NCBI GenBank assembly: GCA_937925815.1
Contig: CALAMQ010000039.1
Coordinates: 1 to 52,571, forward strand
Length of the DNA stretch: 52,571 bases
Reading direction: 5' to 3'
Origin: an uncultured Granulosicoccaceae bacterium
Lineage (GTDB): Bacteria; Pseudomonadota; Gammaproteobacteria; CALCKW01
Below, piece by piece: positions 4,532 through 32,089 of this stretch; the first letter of the stretch is position 1, and every line of letters starts with the position of its first letter. The position numbers were made by a program, and so were the translations under genes. A model generated the notes under the pieces. The model had not been told where the DNA came from and did no database searches. It saw only the letters and a list, made by a program, of their open reading frames with translations.

Positions 4532-5512
4532 ATGTTCAGCGTCTCCCGTGCCCTGCGCGCGGTGCTTGTGATTGGGGTGGTAACGGGCTGCGGGGGCGCC
4601 CTCGCTGACTACAGCAAACACCCCGATGCGAGGGCTCTCGCTGATCGCGTGTTCGAAGCGCACGGCCTCCCGGTTGCCGACACCCTGGATCTGCTCAATG
4701 GTCTCTCGCGTTATGACGCCGTGATCGAGGCGATGTCCAAACCGGCTGAGAAAACATTGAACTGGGCGGGCTACCGACCCATCTTCCTCAAGCCAGAACG
4801 GGTAGAGCAAGGCGTGGCGTTCTACCGCGAGCACCGTGGCCTGCTTGAACAAGCGGGCGAGCGCTATGGCGTGCCGCCGGCAATCATTGCAGCCATTATT
4901 GGCGTTGAGAGCCGTTACGGACGGTTCAAAGGCAAGCACCCGGCACTGCGGTCACTTGCCACGCTCGCTTTTGATTACCCGCGCCGCAGCCCTTTTTTCA
5001 CCGCTGAACTCGAACACTTCCTGGTGCTGAGCCGCGAAGAAGGCCTCGATCCGCGAGCAGTCAAGGGTTCCTACGCCGCGGCGATGGGGATGCCACAATT
5101 CATATCGTCGAGCTACCGCGCCTACGCGGTCGATGGTGATGGCGATGGCAAACGAGACTTGTTCAATAATTTGCACGATGTCACGCACAGCGTTGCCAAC
5201 TATCTGGCGCGCCACGGCTGGCGCGACGGCGAGCCGGTTGCACGCGAAGTGACGCCCAGTGGGGATGTGATTTCGCTGGTTGAAAAAGGGTACAAGCCCT
5301 CGCTCAAGTCGGCCGAGCTGGCTGCGGTCGGTGTTGCGACAGAGCCTGTACACACCGGGGAATACGCGCTTTTGCGCCTCGAGGGTGATCGCGGCGCGGA
5401 GCACTGGGTTGCCTACCCCAATTTTTATGTGATTACCCGCTACAACCACAGTCCGTTGTACGCGATGGCGGTATTTCAGCTCTCACAAGCTATAAAGAGT
5501 GCACAGAATTAA
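4532..5512 (+). CDS. mltB: Membrane-bound lytic murein transglycosylase B
   Basis: MltB cleaves the MurNAc-GlcNAc bond of peptidoglycan with formation of 1,6-anhydroMurNAc. The 326-residue protein has a lipoprotein signal ending in VVTG-Cys20, so it should be anchored in the outer membrane. The catalytic Glu is Glu126 in IIGVESRYGRFKG. AAAMGMPQFISSSYRAYA and the EF-hand-like DGDGDGKRDLFN (about 201-212) are both typical of the Slt35/MltB family. It is followed by rlpA and dacA, forming a murein-processing group in the order often seen downstream of the rod-shape genes in gammaproteobacteria. Confidence 0.95.
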   Translation: MFSVSRALRAVLVIGVVTGCGGALADYSKHPDARALADRVFEAHGLPVADTLDLLNGLSRYDAVIEAMSKPAEKTLNWAGYRPIFLKPERVEQGVAFYREHRGLLEQAGERYGVPPAIIAAIIGVESRYGRFKGKHPALRSLATLAFDYPRRSPFFTAELEHFLVLSREEGLDPRAVKGSYAAAMGMPQFISSSYRAYAVDGDGDGKRDLFNNLHDVTHSVANYLARHGWRDGEPVAREVTPSGDVISLVEKGYKPSLKSAELAAVGVATEPVHTGEYALLRLEGDRGAEHWVAYPNFYVITRYNHSPLYAMAVFQLSQAIKSAQN

Positions 5513-6743: not shown

Positions 6744-7901
6744 ATGACCAGATCTCTCTTTTTTGGCGCCGCGTTCGCGGCGTTTGGCGGGCTGTTGTTT
6801 GCCCCGATGTCTCATTCGGCAGAGGTGCTCAAGCCCTTGCCTGCAGCGCCCGCATTGTCGGCAAAAGCCTATGTGCTCATGGAATATGAGTCGGGTCGGT
6901 TGTTGGTGGCGCACAATGAAATTCAGCAGTACGAGCCGGCCAGTCTGACCAAGGTCATGACGCACTACATCGTCAGTGATGAAATTCAGAAAGGCTTGTT
7001 GTCTCCCGAACTCGAAGTCACAGTTTCAGAAAAAGCGTGGCGGATGCAGGGCTCAAAAATGTTCATCGAAGTGGGCGACGCTGTGCGCGTCGACCAGCTG
7101 ATCAAAGGCATGGTGATCCAGTCAGGCAACGACGCGACCGTACAACTGGCCGAAGTCATCGCCGGCAGCGAAGACACATTTGCCGATCTAATGAACCAAT
7201 ACGCCACGCATTTGGGCATGCGTGACACGTCGTTTCGCAACGCCACCGGCATGCCCAACGGCGAGCATCTCACCACTGCTCGTGACTTGGCCACGCTCTC
7301 GCAAGCCCTGATACGCGACTTCCCCGAGGCCTACAAGCTGCACTCCGAGCGCGAATTTGAATACAACAACATCAAACAGAAAAACCGCAATGAACTGCTG
7401 TGGCGCGATGAGTCGGTAGACGGTTTGAAAACCGGTCACACCAATGCCGCGGGCTACGGTTTGATCGCGTCGGCTGAACGCGATGGCATGCGGTTGATCT
7501 CGGTAGTTATGGGCGCCGACAGTGCCCAGAGCCGTATCAGTGAAACCGCCAAATTGTTGAACTACGGCTTTCGCTTTTTTGAGACCAAGCGCTTGTTCAA
7601 AGCCGAAGAGGCGATGGACGAAGTGCGGGTGTGGAAGGGCGCGGCGCGCACTGTGCCGGTCGGCATGCTTGAGGAGCTGACCGTCGCCATCCCGCGTGGC
7701 CACGGCGACCAACTGGAAAGCAATCTCGAGCTGCGACGTGCGCTCGAAGCCCCGGTTGCCAAAGGTGACGAGCTCGGCGTGCTGGTGGTGCTCTCCGGAG
7801 GCGAGGTGCTGGTGGAACAGCCGGTTGTCGCGCTGGAAGATGTCGAGCGCGGCGGTGTTGTCGACATCGCGCGAGACAGTATTTTGCAGGTGTTTGAATA
7901 G
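6744..7901 (+). CDS. dacA: D-alanyl-D-alanine carboxypeptidase (PBP5/6 type)
   Basis: This low-molecular-weight penicillin-binding protein trims the terminal D-Ala from peptidoglycan pentapeptides. Its 385 residues carry a signal peptide (cleavage near SHSA-EV) and the three transpeptidase-fold motifs: S67-L-T-K70, S127-G-N129 and K229-T-G231. The C-terminal domain after about residue 280 and the end of the chain fit PBP5-type anchoring to the inner membrane. It is followed after 11 bases by ybeD and then lipB-lipA, a classical gammaproteobacterial arrangement. The D-Ala it releases is a possible substrate for the D-amino-acid operon at 28-31 kb (inference). Confidence 0.95.
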   Translation: MTRSLFFGAAFAAFGGLLFAPMSHSAEVLKPLPAAPALSAKAYVLMEYESGRLLVAHNEIQQYEPASLTKVMTHYIVSDEIQKGLLSPELEVTVSEKAWRMQGSKMFIEVGDAVRVDQLIKGMVIQSGNDATVQLAEVIAGSEDTFADLMNQYATHLGMRDTSFRNATGMPNGEHLTTARDLATLSQALIRDFPEAYKLHSEREFEYNNIKQKNRNELLWRDESVDGLKTGHTNAAGYGLIASAERDGMRLISVVMGADSAQSRISETAKLLNYGFRFFETKRLFKAEEAMDEVRVWKGAARTVPVGMLEELTVAIPRGHGDQLESNLELRRALEAPVAKGDELGVLVVLSGGEVLVEQPVVALEDVERGGVVDIARDSILQVFE

Positions 7902-14437: not shown

Positions 14438-14473
14438 GTTGCCCCACACTCTGCTTGACGCTACTCTGGCGCG

Positions 14474-14670
14474 GTTCTCGGGGCGGGGTGGAATTCCCCA
14501 CCGGCGGTAACAGGGAGCTCTCCAGTGAGACTGGTGGCACTCTCTGAAAGCCCGCGAGCGCTCGAACGATCTGTTCGAGGTCAGCAGATCCAGTGCGATT
14601 CTGGAGCCGACGGTGAGACGCTGGTGCAGCAAAGCAGCATAGGTGTCCGACAGTCCGGAAGTGAGAGAAC
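14474..14670 (+). promoter_or_regulatory. FMN riboswitch (RFN element) upstream of ribH
   Basis: Conserved RFN blocks appear in order. The closing stem is GTTCTC (14474-14479) with GAGAAC (14665-14670). Between them come GGGGCGGGGTGGAATTCCCC with ACCGGCGGTAAC, then GCCCGCGAGC, GTGCGATTCTGG with AGCCGACGGTGA, and AGTCCGGAAGTGAGAG. The spacing and sequence match the FMN aptamer. It lies directly before the lumazine synthase gene, as expected for feedback control of riboflavin synthesis. Confidence 0.95.
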
Positions 14671-14767
14671 ACGCCGACACCGTGTTGTCAGCGCGCATTG
14701 GCTGCGCGTGCAGTGCGTTGTAACGGCTGTTGTCGCCCCGAATTTTTGAATTGAATCGGGGATGTCC
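14671..14767 (+). promoter_or_regulatory. Riboswitch expression platform with RBS-sequestering hairpin
   Basis: After the aptamer comes a GCGCGCA/TGCGCG hairpin (about 14690-14710). A second stem pairs CCCCGA (14736-14741) with TCGGGG (14756-14761). The GGGG of the right arm is the ribosome-binding site for ATG 14768, six bases away. There is no U-run after the stem, so control of translation initiation is more likely than transcription termination. Confidence 0.7.
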
Positions 14768-24030: not shown

Positions 24031-24053
24031 GCATACGATAGCGCAGAGTGTGC

Positions 24054-24082
24054 TTGCTGAGCGTGCCCAGATACACGACAAT
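24054..24082 (+). promoter_or_regulatory. Sigma-70 promoter of the 4.5S RNA gene
   Basis: TTGCTG (24054-24059) and GACAAT (24077-24082) are separated by 17 bases. The predicted transcription start near 24089-24091 coincides with the start of the 4.5S RNA stem. The promoter is back-to-back with the phoB promoter. Confidence 0.65.
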
Positions 24083-24092
24083 AGATGGTTCG

Positions 24093-24214
<122 letters not shown>

Positions 24215-24266
24215 TTACCGCCGGCGCCCATCCCGAGCGCCAGGGCAGAAGGTGGCTGCATCCCCC

Positions 24267-26057
24267 ATGAGTTATCAGGTCCTCGCGCGCAAATGGCGTC
24301 CCCGGTCGTTCGCTGAGGTCGCAGGTCAAGAGCACGTTCTGCGCGCCCTGATCAACGCCCTCGACACCGGCCGTCTGCATCACGCCTACCTCTTCACCGG
24401 CACCCGCGGCGTCGGCAAGACCACGCTCGCGCGCATTTTGGCCAAGTGCCTGAACTGCGAGACCGGCGTGACCTCGAGTCCCTGTGGCAGCTGTCGCGCG
24501 TGCACCGAGATCGACGAGGGCCGGTTCCTCGACCTGATCGAAATCGACGCGGCCTCGCGCACCGGCGTGGACGACACCCGAGATCTGCTCGACAACGTTG
24601 CCTACGCGCCGAGTATGGGCCGGTTTAAGGTGTACCTGATCGATGAGGTGCACATGTTCTCGCGCAGCAGTTTTAACGCGCTGCTCAAGACGCTCGAGGA
24701 GCCGCCAGAGCACGTCAAATTTGTGCTCGCAACCACTGACCCACAAAAAGTGCCGGTTACGGTGTTGTCTCGCTGTCTGCAGTTCAACCTCAAACGCTTC
24801 CCGGTTGTCACCATTGCCAACCAACTGCAGCGCGTGCTCGAAGCGGAATCTGTGCCGGCGGAACGCACCGCGCTTGAGACCCTGGCGCAGGCGGGCGAGG
24901 GCTCGATGCGCGACGCGATGAGCCTGCTCGACCAAGCGCTCGCATTCGGCGCGGGCGCCGTGACGGCCACCGACGTGCAGCGCATGCTCGGCGCGGTGGA
25001 TGAACCCGCGCGCTTTGACCTGCTCGAGGCCGTGGCCAGTGGTGATGCTTCGGCTGTGCTTGCGAAGGTCGCGTCGCTCGATGAATTCGCACCCGACTAT
25101 GAAGCGTTGCTCGGCGATATCGTCTCGATGCTACACGCCATCGCCATTCACCAAAGCGTGCCGGAGGTGGCTGAACACCCGGTCAATGACACCGCGCGAT
25201 TGCAGGCGTTGGCAGAGACCATTCCGCCTGAAGACGTGCAGCTCTTTTACCAAATTGGCCTGGTCGGCCGACGCGATCAACCGCTTGTGCCCGTTGCGCG
25301 GCACGGCTTTGAAATGACGCTGTTGCGCATGATGGCGTTTCGACCGGCTGAACGCGGCGCCCTCGACAGCGCGCCGGCGGCGGCCGTCGCACCCACACCT
25401 GCTCCGGCACCGGCGACAACCGGTCCCGCTGCGCGGCCAGCTGATCAGTTGCGCGCCGCTGTCGCCGGGTCACAAGCGCCGAAAGCTGCGCGCGTTGACA
25501 CCAGCCGTGCGGCGCCTGAAACGCGTGGCGCGGTTGAGATGGAGCACGCGCCGCCACAGACGGCACAGCCAGTTGTGTCCGCGCCAGCAGTGACCCCGGT
25601 TCAGTCAAGTGCAGCGCCGCCCGCGCCCATAGCGCCTGCGGCGGCTCTCGAGCTGAACGCGGACAATTGGACTGAGATTGTTGCGGCGCTACCGGTCAAG
25701 GGCATGCCGTTACAGCTTGCCATGCACAGTGTGCCGCAGAGCCGTGGTGCCAACGCGGTGACCTTGCAGTTGCCCCAAGCGCACCAGCATTTGGCGGCGC
25801 CGGCTTTTTGCGAGCGCTTGCAGGCCTCACTTGAAAGCTACCTTGGCCGCAGTGTGTCTCTCGACGTGCAATTGGCCACCTCTGAGCTCGCCTCGCCCGC
25901 GCAACAAAAGGCGCTGGACGTCGAGGCGCGCCAGCGTCAAGCGGAGCAGGCAATCTACAATGACCCAGTGGTGCAGCAACTGCAAAATCGTTTTGATGGC
26001 GAAGTGCAAGCCGACAGCATTCGGCCTGTTGATGACGGCGCCGATCACACCCCGTGA
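24267..26057 (+). CDS. dnaX: DNA polymerase III subunits gamma and tau
   Basis: DnaX is the clamp-loader ATPase of the replicative polymerase. From ATG 24267 the protein has 596 residues. It has the AAA+ core with Walker A GTRGVGKTT, the zinc-binding cysteines CLNCETG and PCGSCRAC, Walker B VYLIDEVHMFS, and sensor LATTDPQKVPVTVLSRC. A Pro/Ala-rich linker (about 365-460) precedes the tau-specific C-terminal domains that bind DnaB and the alpha subunit. I saw no canonical A-AAA-AAG slippery site for making gamma. An open frame from 24048 overlaps the 4.5S RNA and was rejected. Confidence 0.96.
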   Translation: MSYQVLARKWRPRSFAEVAGQEHVLRALINALDTGRLHHAYLFTGTRGVGKTTLARILAKCLNCETGVTSSPCGSCRACTEIDEGRFLDLIEIDAASRTGVDDTRDLLDNVAYAPSMGRFKVYLIDEVHMFSRSSFNALLKTLEEPPEHVKFVLATTDPQKVPVTVLSRCLQFNLKRFPVVTIANQLQRVLEAESVPAERTALETLAQAGEGSMRDAMSLLDQALAFGAGAVTATDVQRMLGAVDEPARFDLLEAVASGDASAVLAKVASLDEFAPDYEALLGDIVSMLHAIAIHQSVPEVAEHPVNDTARLQALAETIPPEDVQLFYQIGLVGRRDQPLVPVARHGFEMTLLRMMAFRPAERGALDSAPAAAVAPTPAPAPATTGPAARPADQLRAAVAGSQAPKAARVDTSRAAPETRGAVEMEHAPPQTAQPVVSAPAVTPVQSSAAPPAPIAPAAALELNADNWTEIVAALPVKGMPLQLAMHSVPQSRGANAVTLQLPQAHQHLAAPAFCERLQASLESYLGRSVSLDVQLATSELASPAQQKALDVEARQRQAEQAIYNDPVVQQLQNRFDGEVQADSIRPVDDGADHTP

Positions 26058-27454: not shown

Positions 27455-27964
27455 TTATGGCAGCAAGACGCCGTCAATGACATGGATCACGCCGTTGCTC
27501 GCGGCGACGTCGGCGCTGATAACAGTGGCACCGTTGATCATGACGCCATCTGTGGCGTTGATGCTCAGCATGGCGCCGTTGACTGACTCAGCGTCAAGGG
27601 TCTGACCTGCAATGTCAGATGACATCACTTTGCCGGGCAGTACGTGGTAGGTCAGTAACGCCACAAGCTGATCTTTGTTCTCTGGAAGCAACAGGTTTTC
27701 TACAGTGCCTTCTGGCAGTGCTGCAAAAGCCTCATCTGTCGGTGCAAACACAGTCAGCGGGCCATCGCCCTGCAGCGTGTCGACCAAGCCAGCGGCTTTG
27801 GCGGCAGCGATCAATGTGTTGAAGGAGCCCGCATTGATTGCTGTTTCAACGATGTCAGCAGATGCTGCCTCAGAGTAAGTACTGCCTGCGACGGTGACGC
27901 CTGTGGTCAGACCGGTCAGTACCAGACCTGCAGCGAGTGCGGTCATTCGACGAGAGAGATTCAT
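27455..27964 (-). CDS. Secreted fasciclin (FAS1) domain protein
   Basis: This 169-residue protein has a signal peptide ([20 protein letters not shown]) and a single FAS1 domain from about residue 35. The two conserved blocks are present: H1 ([20 protein letters not shown]) and H2 ([15 protein letters not shown]), with the YH motif as [11 protein letters not shown]. Such proteins are exported and thought to mediate adhesion or surface binding. An AAGGAAA ribosome-binding site precedes the ATG. It stands alone between the ferredoxin terminator and the D-amino-acid operon, with a 258-base gap upstream. Confidence 0.9.
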
Positions 27965-28222
27965 GGCTTTTCCTTGGTATCAACTGTTTGGAGAAGCTGA
28001 GTAGTTAGCGGCTCAATGAGCTGCTTCACTCAGTGGTTGTAACCTTAGCGATTCCAAAGGCGCGGAAAATCAAGATCCTGTGAAGATGTTGTACGGGCCG
28101 TGTGAAGATTGCATCACATAGCTGTCAAAACGCTCAAATTGTCAGAATTTTCCTGTTTTGTTGAAGAGCGGAAGTTGGGATTGACGCGAATGCGCAACGC
28201 TGGCGACGGGTTTGGCCGGCGG
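27965..28222. other. Intergenic region between fasciclin and aminotransferase genes
   Basis: No gene is visible in these 258 bases. The segment includes two in-phase direct copies of TGTGAAGAT (28079-28087 and 28101-28109, 22 bases apart). It also has a weak promoter-like TTGATT at about 28076 on the minus strand, which could serve the fasciclin gene. Confidence 0.4.
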
Positions 28223-29080
28223 CTATTCGGCGTTGTCTCGGGCGTCTTGAATGTATATTTCCCGCAGGCGGTTAGTGATGGGGCCAGGTTTGCCATGTCC
28301 GATAGTGTGCCCATCTATCTCCACCACAGGCATCACAAAGCCCGTGGCTGAAGTGAAGAAGGCTTCTGTGGCCGACCGTGCTTCATCTAATGAAAATGCA
28401 CGTTCCTCTAAGGTCAGTTGCATATCGTTGACACAACGCAAAACCGAGCGGCGCGTGATGCCGGGCAGGATGTCGTGGCTGAGTTGGCGAGTGATGATTC
28501 GACCGTCAGCAAGCACGATGTAGGCGTTGTTTGAGGTGCCTTCCGTGATGCCTTGCTCGTCGACCATCCAGGCGTCGTCTGCTCCCGCGCGTTTGGCTTC
28601 CATTTTGGCAAGAGAGGGGTAGAGCAATTGCACTGTTTTTATGTCGCGGCGACCCCAACGCTTGTCTGGCACAGTGATGACGCGAATGCCAGTGCGTGCG
28701 GCTGGCGTGTCAGCTACCGCGCGCACCTGCGTGAACAGCACCAGGGTGGGTTCGGTGTCTTCGTCTGGGAAGGCGAAATCACGGTCTGCCGCGCCGCGTG
28801 AAATTTGCAGGTAAATCAATCCTTCATCGACATCATTTCGCGCAATGAGTTCGTGGTGGATGGCGCGCAACTCGTCTGTTGAGACGGGTTGCGCCATTGC
28901 CAGCTCGGACAGTGACCGGTCGAGACGTTCCATGTGTTGCGTGAAATCGACCAATTTACGGTTTAAGACGGCTGTGACTTCGTACACCGCGTCAGCAAAT
29001 AGAAAGCCGCGGTCAAAAACCGAGATGTGTGCTTGTTCTTCGGCCACGTACTCACCGTTAACGAAGACGGTTCTACTCAT
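28223..29080 (-). CDS. dat: D-amino-acid aminotransferase (class IV PLP enzyme)
   Basis: This enzyme should transfer the amino group of D-amino acids such as D-Ala to 2-oxoglutarate, giving D-Glu and an oxoacid. The 285-residue sequence aligns with bacterial DAAT. FADAVYEVTAV holds the Tyr equivalent to Bacillus Tyr31 (Tyr33), Lys148 in RRDIKTVQLL is the PLP lysine, and Glu180 in QGITEGTSNN is the pyridine-nitrogen ligand. The substrate-carboxylate motif R-x-H of the Bacillus enzyme reads R-x-F here (ADRDFAFP, Arg100 and Phe102). Last gene of the dgcN-dgcA-dat unit, 3 bases after dgcA. A branched-chain aminotransferase is less likely. Confidence 0.85.
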   Translation of the reverse strand: MSRTVFVNGEYVAEEQAHISVFDRGFLFADAVYEVTAVLNRKLVDFTQHMERLDRSLSELAMAQPVSTDELRAIHHELIARNDVDEGLIYLQISRGAADRDFAFPDEDTEPTLVLFTQVRAVADTPAARTGIRVITVPDKRWGRRDIKTVQLLYPSLAKMEAKRAGADDAWMVDEQGITEGTSNNAYIVLADGRIITRQLSHDILPGITRRSVLRCVNDMQLTLEERAFSLDEARSATEAFFTSATGFVMPVVEIDGHTIGHGKPGPITNRLREIYIQDARDNAE

Positions 29081-29083
29081 TGC

Positions 29084-30064
29084 TTATCCCCAAAGTTCTG
29101 GTGTGGCGGGCTGCATCACTGAGCCATCGAACGCAATTGCGTGTTGGCAGTCTTCGGCGAGCAACAAAGGCCCGTCTAAGTCGACAAACTTTGCCCCTTG
29201 GGCCACAAGTTGTGCTGGTGCCATGGCCAGAGAGCTCCCGACCATGCAGCCGACCATGATGTCCAAGCCTTGCGCCTGGGCTTCGTGCTTGAGTGCCAAC
29301 GCCTCGGTGAGCCCGCCGGTTTTATCGAGTTTGATATTGATCATGTCGTAGCGCCCACCGAGCTGCCGCAGAGACTGCCTGTCGTGGCAGGATTCATCGG
29401 CGCACACCGCGATGGGTCTTGGCAAGTCGCTGAGTGCAGCGTCCTTGTCTGCGTGGAAGGGTTGTTCAATCAATTCGACGGCGAGCCCTTCGAGTGAGGG
29501 CAAGAGTGCGAGGTAGTCGTCGCGCGTCCAAGCTTCATTCGCGTCGATGATCAGCCGCGCCTTGGGCGCGCCCTGGCGTACCGCGCGCAATAGCTCGAGG
29601 TCTGACGGTGTGCCAAGCTTGATTTTTAAAATTGGCCGGTCGGCGTGTGACGCCGCCAGCGTTTTCATGGTGGCCCGGTCGGCGATGCCGATGGTGTAGG
29701 CGGTAGTCAGGTTCGTAAGTTTCGGTAGACCGGCGAGCGCGTGCACCCGCCGTCCTTGTTGTTTGGCGTCGAGGTCCCACAAGGCACAGTCCATGGCATT
29801 GCGCGCAGCGCCCGATGGCATGTCGGCTTGCAGCGCGTCGCGCGTCGACCCGCTTGCAACTTTCTCAGCGACCGCATCGAGTTGGGCGCGCACGCTGTCG
29901 AGCGACTCACCGTAGCGAGCGTAAGGCACGCACTCGGCGTGGCCAGAAAAACCGTTCTCAGTCACCGTGACTTGCAACACCTCGGCAACATCGCGGCTGC
30001 CGCGCGAAATGGTGAACGTGTGGCGAAGGCGGAACTGTACGCTGGCAACTGTGGTGGACCTCAA
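29084..30064 (-). CDS. dgcA: N-acetyl-D-glutamate racemase / dipeptide epimerase (enolase superfamily), DgcA-like
   Basis: This 326-residue protein is a muconate-lactonizing-subgroup member of the enolase superfamily. The catalytic lysine pair is in LKIKLG and INIKLDKTGG. The metal ligands are in IIDANEAW, ELIEQP and ADES. Such enzymes are annotated as L-Ala-D/L-Glu epimerases. Next to a DUF1611 protein, however, the pair matches DgcA/DgcN of the D-glutamate catabolic route known from marine Pseudoalteromonas, in which DgcA racemises N-acetyl-D-Glu. The start is TTG 30064, overlapping the upstream stop (TTGA), with an AGAGG ribosome-binding site 7 bases before it. Murein-dipeptide epimerisation remains an alternative. 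Confidence 0.85.
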   Translation of the reverse strand: MRSTTVASVQFRLRHTFTISRGSRDVAEVLQVTVTENGFSGHAECVPYARYGESLDSVRAQLDAVAEKVASGSTRDALQADMPSGAARNAMDCALWDLDAKQQGRRVHALAGLPKLTNLTTAYTIGIADRATMKTLAASHADRPILKIKLGTPSDLELLRAVRQGAPKARLIIDANEAWTRDDYLALLPSLEGLAVELIEQPFHADKDAALSDLPRPIAVCADESCHDRQSLRQLGGRYDMINIKLDKTGGLTEALALKHEAQAQGLDIMVGCMVGSSLAMAPAQLVAQGAKFVDLDGPLLLAEDCQHAIAFDGSVMQPATPELWG

Positions 30065-31056
30065 GGCAGCGCCTCTAGCAAGGCGTCGCAACCCTGTTTC
30101 ATTGGGTCAACTGCCGGCAGGGAGAGCGCATCTGCACAGGCTTTTAGGCAAACTGCGGTGACCGCGTCGTCGAGGCCGGCTGTGTTAACGGCGGTGCCGA
30201 TCACTTTGCAATTTGGGTTGACGCGGCGTGCGAACAGCAAGCTCGTGTCGTGTACGGCTTGTAAATCGGGTAAGGCGTAGTGTGGCAGCCCACGCATGTG
30301 TGTGCGTGTGGGTTCGTGGCAAATCACCAAGGCGTCGGGGGCGCTGCCGTGAATCAACGCCAAGGTCACGCCAGAGAAAGAGGGGTGGAACAAGCTGCCT
30401 TGGCCCTCGACCAGGTCCCAGTGATCAGCATCTGCCGCGGGTGTGAGTGTCTCTATTGAACCGGCCATGAAATCGGCGACAACCGCATCCAGCGGCACAC
30501 CTTGTCCAGTGATCAAAATGCCAGTTTGCCCGGTCGCGCGAAAATCGGCGTTGATGCCGCGCGCGCGCATGTCGCGCTCAAGCGCGAGCGTTGTGTACAT
30601 TTTGCCAACCGAACAATCTGTTCCCACTGCGAGCAGGCGCTTGCCGGAGCGGGGTTTTCCGTCGCCTATGGGGTACGCCTGTTGTGGCACACGCACGTCC
30701 ACAAGCGCGCGCCCGAGTCGCTCCGCTGTGGCGACCAGCACCGGGTCGTCCCGCAGCAAATTGTGCAAGCCACTGGCGATGTCGAGTCCCGCTTCGAGCG
30801 CTTCGACCAGCACACTGCGCCATGTGTCGCTGATCACACCACCGCGATTGGCAACGCCGATAACGAGCGTCTTCGCACCGGCGGCGACAGCGGCCTCAAG
30901 CGAGAGTTCTTCGAGTCCGACATCGGCTCGGCAGCCCTCTAAGGTGTGTTGACCGACGCATTGCTCTGGGCGCCAGTCGCGAATGCCGCGCGCCACTTTG
31001 GCGGCCAGTTGATCGGGTGCGTCGCCGAGGAATAGTAGGTAGGGGGCTTTGATCAC
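30061..31056 (-). CDS. dgcN: DUF1611 protein, DgcN-like D-glutamate N-acetyltransferase
   Basis: This 331-residue protein is of the DUF1611 family: APYLLFLGDAPDQLAAKVAR at the start, a P-loop-like LAVGTDCSVGKMYTTLALE, ADFRATGQTGILITGQGVPL, EGQGSLFHPSFSGVTLALI and HEPTRTHMRGL. DgcN homologues acetylate D-glutamate before racemisation by DgcA. GTG 31056 is chosen because AGGA lies 7 bases upstream; the frame stays open to 31119. It overlaps dgcA by 4 bases, implying coupled translation. No DgcR-type regulator gene is adjacent; rsgA is upstream. Confidence 0.83.
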   Translation of the reverse strand: MIKAPYLLFLGDAPDQLAAKVARGIRDWRPEQCVGQHTLEGCRADVGLEELSLEAAVAAGAKTLVIGVANRGGVISDTWRSVLVEALEAGLDIASGLHNLLRDDPVLVATAERLGRALVDVRVPQQAYPIGDGKPRSGKRLLAVGTDCSVGKMYTTLALERDMRARGINADFRATGQTGILITGQGVPLDAVVADFMAGSIETLTPAADADHWDLVEGQGSLFHPSFSGVTLALIHGSAPDALVICHEPTRTHMRGLPHYALPDLQAVHDTSLLFARRVNPNCKVIGTAVNTAGLDDAVTAVCLKACADALSLPAVDPMKQGCDALLEALP

Positions 31057-31183
31057 AATCACGTCCTGCCAAGCGGAATGCCGACAGTGTAATAGAGTCT
31101 TTCGGGCAACCCCAATCACCCAGGGTTTGCCTCCTGAGACGGGATGGGGGTTCGGTCTGTCCAGGTGGCTGGGCGGCGAGTAT

Positions 31184-32089
31184 TCAGCGTTTTTGTGTCA
31201 TTGCGGTGGATTCAGCAATCAACGAGCAGAAGTTGGCGTATCGGCGCTGCGAGATACTGTCTGATGCAAGGGCGCCTTTGACCGCGCAATCGGGTTCATG
31301 CTGATGGGTGCAGTCGTTGAAACGGCAGTTCCGCGCGTGCGCGGCGATTTCCAGAAAGCCCGCAGCGATTTGCTCGGGTGGGAGAAAGTCGACACGAAAC
31401 TCGCGCACACCCGGTGAATCGATCACCGCACCGCCGCTTTCAGTGACATACCAGTAGGCGGCGATGGTTGTGTGGCTGCCAAATCCCGCTCGAGACAGCG
31501 CGCCGACTGCGATCTCCTGATCTGGTGCGAAGTGGCGGATGAGCGACGACTTTCCAACGCCGGATTGGCCGACAAAGACGCAAGCCTGACCATCAATTGC
31601 GGCATTGAGCGTGGCAAGTGACTGCGGCTCCATCGCCGAACAAACCAGAAGGTCGTAGCCGCACTGTGCGTAACAGGCCAGTGATTCCTCCTTCTGGCGA
31701 CGTTGATCCTGCGACAGCAGATCGCTTTTGTTGATGACCAACAAGGGGCGCACTCGGGCGCTGTGAGCTGCGACTAGATACTGATCGATCATCAGGTAGT
31801 CGATGCCGGGCGTCGGGGCACTGACGATGATCATGCGGTCAAAATTGCTGGCGAGTATGCGACTTCGACCGCGTCTGTCCAAGCGCTCCAGCGCGCTGCT
31901 GCGTGGTTCCACAGACTCGATGCACACGGTGTCTGCGTCAGCTTCACTGCACTGCACGCGATCACCGACCACGGCTGATTGGGCCTTGCTGCGTGCTGTG
32001 GCAGGGTGCATGTTGCCGTCGTCTGACCGGACAACGCGGTGGGCTCTGTGGTGTGCGATCACGCGGCCTGAGAGCGGAAATTGAGTCAC
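31184..32089 (-). CDS. rsgA: Ribosome small-subunit-dependent GTPase RsgA
   Basis: RsgA is a late 30S assembly factor. The 301-residue protein has an OB-fold N-terminus and a circularly permuted GTPase domain: G4 INKSD comes first, then G1 GQSGVGKSS and G3 DSPGV. A C-terminal zinc-binding segment follows (NCRFNDCTHQHEPDC). It is shorter at the N-terminus than E. coli RsgA (350 residues). The start is GTG 32089 without a clear ribosome-binding site. It is divergent from orn, as in many gammaproteobacteria. Confidence 0.94.
   Translation of the reverse strand: MTQFPLSGRVIAHHRAHRVVRSDDGNMHPATARSKAQSAVVGDRVQCSEADADTVCIESVEPRSSALERLDRRGRSRILASNFDRMIIVSAPTPGIDYLMIDQYLVAAHSARVRPLLVINKSDLLSQDQRRQKEESLACYAQCGYDLLVCSAMEPQSLATLNAAIDGQACVFVGQSGVGKSSLIRHFAPDQEIAVGALSRAGFGSHTTIAAYWYVTESGGAVIDSPGVREFRVDFLPPEQIAAGFLEIAAHARNCRFNDCTHQHEPDCAVKGALASDSISQRRYANFCSLIAESTAMTQKR

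Follow-up and report, generated by a model that had tools for sequence, protein, structure and literature searches.

The DgcN-DgcA D-glutamate (D-Glu) pathway was reportedly first described in marine Pseudoalteromonas. It is treated in PMC12363236 and PMC10845958, and a Rhodobacteraceae strain annotated with the enzymes DgcN, DgcA and Dat can use D-Ala, D-Glu, D-Ser, D-Phe and D-Lys for growth (PMC11747546). D-amino acid aminotransferases are, in addition, an accepted alternative to MurI for supplying peptidoglycan D-Glu (PMC8788868). Here we analyse a dgcN-dgcA-dat triad within a stretch of 52,571 nucleotides (hereafter the window) from an uncultured Granulosicoccaceae bacterium, comparing the genome that holds the window (G000) with three congeners (G001, G002 and G003) and with wider genome samples.

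The window locus encodes both enzymes of the DgcN-DgcA pathway with unchanged gene order, each scoring over its curated cut-off, but it adds dat and has no adjacent regulator gene; also, its DgcN falls into another clade than that of most lineages lacking dat, and the genome is without detectable MurI. With the Rhodobacteraceae-type triad it shares gene order, strand and one supported DgcN clade, whereas those genomes, unlike that of the window, have MurI (a MurI-like match of at least 99 bits in 38 of 39 tested genomes, drawn from several taxa, that carry a DgcN of this clade, the exception being a MAG labelled Spirochaeta). As for Dat as an alternative source of peptidoglycan D-Glu (PMC8788868), Alr is present, MurI is not detected and Dat scores over its curated cut-off; however, the window dat shares its operon with enzymes that would consume D-Glu.

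The dgcN-dgcA-dat locus and its predicted products

Three minus-strand genes at 28223-31056 form a compact cluster (Table 1), as an earlier note on this DNA had described: dgcN and dgcA overlap by 4 nt (TTGA), and 3 nt separate dgcA from dat. As the congeners G001 and G003 share this order with dozens of further genomes, it is not due to chance. A search of the interval 27900-31400 of the window, around the genes, gave no sigma-70-like promoter; we call the triad an operon because of its spacing and conservation, and it would be co-transcribed as one transcription unit. Upstream of dgcN lies rsgA on the same strand, at a distance of 127 nt, and downstream of the operon a fasciclin-domain gene, so that neither flank holds a regulator gene, in agreement with the earlier note. 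The same note had named dacA and mltB as possible suppliers of substrate at 6.7 and 4.5 kb. Both genes are indeed present (Pfam), but these values are window coordinates, and the distance from either gene to the operon exceeds 20 kb. Elsewhere in the window we found an FMN riboswitch (81.5 bits) and a bacterial small SRP RNA; the latter overlaps the 5' end of a long ORF call, the true start of which is therefore probably further downstream.

Table 1. Positions of the features discussed in the text (window coordinates unless a contig is given)
Feature	Position	Strand	Details
dgcN	30061..31056	minus	331 aa; GTG start at 31056, stop ends 30061; predicted D-glutamate N-acetyltransferase
dgcA	29084..30064	minus	326 aa; TTG start at 30064 overlaps dgcN stop, stop ends 29084; predicted N-acetyl-D-glutamate racemase, enolase superfamily
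dat	28223..29080	minus	285 aa; ATG start at 29080, stop ends 28223; predicted D-amino-acid transaminase
mltB	4532-5512		Pfam
dacA	6744-7901		Pfam
FMN riboswitch	14470-14674		
Bacterial small SRP RNA	24104-24200		
Long ORF call	24048-26057		
YgeA-like racemase (L136)	G000:C16:2985-3680		TIGR00035, 229 bits

The identities proposed in the earlier note were confirmed for all three proteins by scores over NCBIfam cut-offs. DgcN passed the equivalog model NF041892 (523.8 bits; cut-off 480) and consists of PF07755 and PF17396, i.e. the C- and N-terminal DUF1611 domains (Pfam); its closest solved chain is 7xrj (residues 1-330, E 1.4e-143), and it is 49% identical to the DgcN of one other gammaproteobacterial lineage. 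DgcA passed the equivalog model NF042940 (474 bits; cut-off 400), carries the N- and C-terminal MR_MLE domains (Pfam) and has 4gfi and 1jpd as its closest solved chains. It keeps K147 and K149, which we take to be the KxK motif, the presumed three metal-ligand acids D174, E200 and D223, and K248, presumably the second catalytic lysine, with conservation of 97% or more for each of these residues across 113 sequences. We considered whether the window DgcA is decaying, as 13 of 133 near-invariant positions are changed (8 in G001), and rejected this because the catalytic residues are intact.

Dat belongs to PLP fold type IV (Aminotran_4, Pfam), with 9pxs and 3daa as the closest solved chains and a DIK motif where the catalytic lysine is expected. 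It passed the NCBIfam subfamily model NF005209 (PRK06680 D-amino-acid transaminase; 383 bits, cut-off 320) but stayed below the cut-off of TIGR01121, the model for the canonical B. subtilis-type DAAT (230 versus 277.45). The difference can also be seen in the carboxylate trap, which is Y31-R98-H100 in the B. subtilis-type enzyme (PMC10003956): the window Dat keeps the Tyr and the Arg, whereas the His is replaced by Phe, as in all 73 aligned Dats.

Distribution of the triad and phylogeny of DgcN

Among the congeners, G001 carries the triad in the same context, adjoining rsgA, and G003 carries it in a different one; in G002 the locus is cut off by a contig end right after dgcN. The earlier note had called for a search for the three-gene arrangement across genomes, and such a search shows it to be recurrent. 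In a scan of named genomes, dat lies downstream of dgcN in 67 of the 80 nearest DgcN loci, and contig ends truncate several of the remaining 13. These 80 loci are mostly Rhodobacteraceae-type, with additional ones from Vreelandella, Salinicola and MAGs labelled Desulfovibrio and Spirochaeta. Both MAGs (L014 and L079) carry the triad, and for the Spirochaeta MAG a protein search gave no MurI match. We also examined 397 evenly sampled Pseudomonadota genomes and found a DgcN over the cut-off in 80 of them. Within one family of this sample (f112), 32 of the 33 DgcN carriers have a co-directional dat downstream, at distances of 991-2650 bases after dgcN (22 of the 32 within 1.3 kb). We infer that this family is Rhodobacteraceae-type, since one of its members (G253) and Amylibacter kogurei have identical DgcN proteins. 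By comparison, dat is nearby in only 4 of 40 further DgcN loci, mostly from other families, and two of these 4 again belong to f112. In the majority of the other DgcN lineages, dgcN-dgcA occurs without dat; dgcA and dgcN form a pair in most of the genomes that we examined. One gammaproteobacterium (G020) has two dgcN-dgcA pairs (L012 and L013) beside genes for TonB receptors, peptidases and beta-lactamase-family proteins, a neighbourhood that suggests uptake of D-amino-acid peptides.

In the DgcN tree, the dat-linked proteins fall into one clade (SH-aLRT 98) that also includes a few members without a neighbouring dat. The window protein, which the earlier note had proposed to place by phylogeny, lies inside this supported clade in addition to scoring over the equivalog cut-off. 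The proteins of G000, G001 and G002 are grouped with a support of 100, whereas the DgcN of G003 is placed with those of Granulosicoccaceae and Halomonadaceae, suggesting that G003 acquired dgcN separately from the other three; for a joint transfer of all three genes into G003, the Dat and DgcA trees are too weakly supported there to confirm it. Thus dgcN-dgcA-dat is the ordinary arrangement of one large clade, a fact that escaped the earlier note, as did the lack of a detectable MurI in the genome.

Possible sources of D-glutamate in the window lineage

With the MurI model, the best match in the window genome reached 20.8 bits (cut-off 146.65) and G001 gave no match at all; when the MurI protein of G003, the congener that does have MurI, was used as the query, no match was found in G000, G001 and G002, which are draft genomes of 99% (G000), 96% and 79% completeness. 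The 20.8-bit match is in fact an amino-acid racemase of the YgeA-like type (TIGR00035, cut-off 93.1). Its gene is flanked by carnitine-dehydrogenase-like and BKACE-like genes in a cluster resembling carnitine degradation, and a similar cluster with a YgeA-like racemase occurs in G003 (L143). Alr is present in all four congeners. Among the class IV aminotransferases of G000, the operon Dat alone scores over a DAT cut-off, the others being three BCAT-type enzymes and one fragment at a contig end. Two ArgE-type deacetylases over the cut-off are encoded in G000, both unlinked to the operon.

G000 has a single MurD over the cut-off, which is of the canonical type, and there is no sign of MurD2 in this genome, as its other matches to the MurD model sit where MurC, MurE, MurF and Mpl are expected. 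Of the residues diagnostic for a D-Glu-type MurD, which include an Asp and a Lys (PMC8788868), both of these are kept; the third and fourth diagnostic positions are Ser and Phe, in G000 as well as in G001 and G002. We therefore consider a MurD2/MurL route to D-Glu unlikely: MurD keeps two of the four D-Glu-type residues, and no second MurD-like gene was detected beyond the MurC/E/F/Mpl-like matches.

We compared the occurrence of Dat and MurI in the 171 gammaproteobacteria of the 397-genome sample, counting genomes with no MurI match or an E-value above 1e-20 as MurI-less and Dat matches with E<1e-60 as strong (best E-values and MurI calls were transcribed by hand). A strong Dat was found in 18 of 31 MurI-less and 36 of 140 MurI-positive genomes (Fisher p=0.001); counted by family, the numbers are 10 of 13 and 13 of 37 (p=0.02). 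Of the 13 MurI-less genomes without a strong Dat, 12 belong to two families (f13 and f69), and a post hoc exclusion of these families raises the proportion to 18 of 19 MurI-less gammaproteobacteria. Neither MurI nor a strong Dat was seen in any of the 12 gammaproteobacteria sampled from f13 and f69, so that routes to D-Glu other than MurI and Dat exist; MurD2/MurL could explain these two families. Two of the f69 genomes have DgcN without an adjacent DgcA. The scope of the association is the gammaproteobacteria; in alphaproteobacteria, Dat is common with or without MurI. MurI loss and the occurrence of dgcN itself showed no association (p=0.14). Given this value and the 38 of 39 clade carriers that have MurI, we discarded the idea that the triad and MurI loss form a general pair.

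Possible roles of the operon

Judging from the enzyme families, Dat would form D-Glu by transamination of 2-oxoglutarate, with D-Ala and other D-amino acids as amino donors, and DgcN would acetylate this D-Glu with acetyl-CoA; DgcA would then convert N-acetyl-D-Glu to N-acetyl-L-Glu, from which an unlinked ArgE-type deacetylase would release L-Glu. Salvage chemistry of this kind, leading from several D-amino acids via D-Glu towards L-Glu, is likely for the operon, and the outline given in the earlier note is plausible. Its description as a 'complete' route within about 2.8 kb does not hold, since the operon has no gene for deacetylating N-acetyl-L-Glu and the ArgE-type enzymes are unlinked to it. 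In MurI-bearing bacteria of the Rhodobacteraceae type, the triad would serve the catabolism of D-amino acids. Our data suggest that catabolism was the original role, dgcN and dgcA preceding dat.

In the window lineage, MurI seems to have been lost or never to have been there, and MurD would most likely receive its D-Glu from Alr together with Dat. Because MurI is not detectable and Alr and Dat are left as the likeliest source, the operon may serve both to produce D-Glu for the cell wall and, through DgcN and DgcA, to remove what is in excess. We infer this double role, along with the enzyme activities, the co-transcription and the direction of flux that it implies, with moderate confidence. 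Some cell-wall D-Glu, and perhaps most of it, probably comes from Dat here. More tentative is a stricter form of the proposal, for which we would claim possibility rather than probability: the sole D-Glu-forming enzyme would share its operon with D-Glu-destroying enzymes, and one transcript would balance the cell-wall D-Glu pool after MurI loss. The YgeA-like racemase of G000, which could make D-Glu, is a point against the double role. Further such points are the draft state of the genomes in which MurI was not detected, the MurI-less families f13 and f69 with their lack of a strong Dat, the missing association of dgcN with MurI loss, the missing sigma-70-like promoter and the catabolic origin suggested above. 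Nor would this be the general function of the triad, since nearly all carriers of the clade have MurI.

The strongest competing explanation is catabolism alone, in which external or recycled D-amino acids would be converted via D-Glu to L-Glu while cell-wall D-Glu would come from another enzyme such as the YgeA-like racemase. It draws on the occurrence of the same triad in MurI-positive genomes, on the TIGR00035 racemase encoded in G000 and on the growth on D-amino acids of the Rhodobacteraceae strain with DgcN, DgcA and Dat enzymes (PMC11747546). However, MurI is not detected in three congeners, and the YgeA-like gene, lying in a carnitine-type cluster and having a homologue in the MurI-bearing G003, is not an evident substitute. 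Pure salvage is unlikely, as dat probably also feeds peptidoglycan D-Glu in a genome without detectable MurI.

Recycling of murein peptides, with the epimerase acting on L-Ala-D-Glu dipeptides instead of, or besides, N-acetyl-D-Glu, appears improbable. DgcA is close to the E. coli L-Ala-D/L-Glu epimerase (1jpd, E 6.8e-78), and it keeps, near its C terminus, the Asp-Leu-Asp motif (D295 and D297) that in dipeptide epimerases presumably binds the ammonium group of the dipeptide; as this motif stands alongside the enolase-superfamily residues, the sequence is also compatible with a dipeptide epimerase. Yet DgcA passed its own equivalog model and stayed below the cut-off of the L-Ala-D/L-Glu epimerase model (NF011708, NCBIfam; 309 versus 343), and its gene is usually paired with dgcN. 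A reversed DgcA, turning N-acetyl-L-Glu from arginine synthesis into N-acetyl-D-Glu for deacetylation to D-Glu in place of MurI, would agree with the undetected MurI, the ArgE-type paralogues and the reversibility of racemases of the enolase-superfamily fold, but is highly improbable, as DgcN consumes D-Glu irreversibly and Dat offers a simpler route.

With regard to the double role, dgcN-dgcA-dat should not be read as salvage before murI has been checked. If dat is the main source of D-Glu in this lineage, a catabolic cassette spread between marine-type proteobacteria could have permitted the loss of MurI, which is essential in most bacteria, and the operon would provide a clear test of how an essential D-amino acid is kept alongside the enzymes that degrade it.
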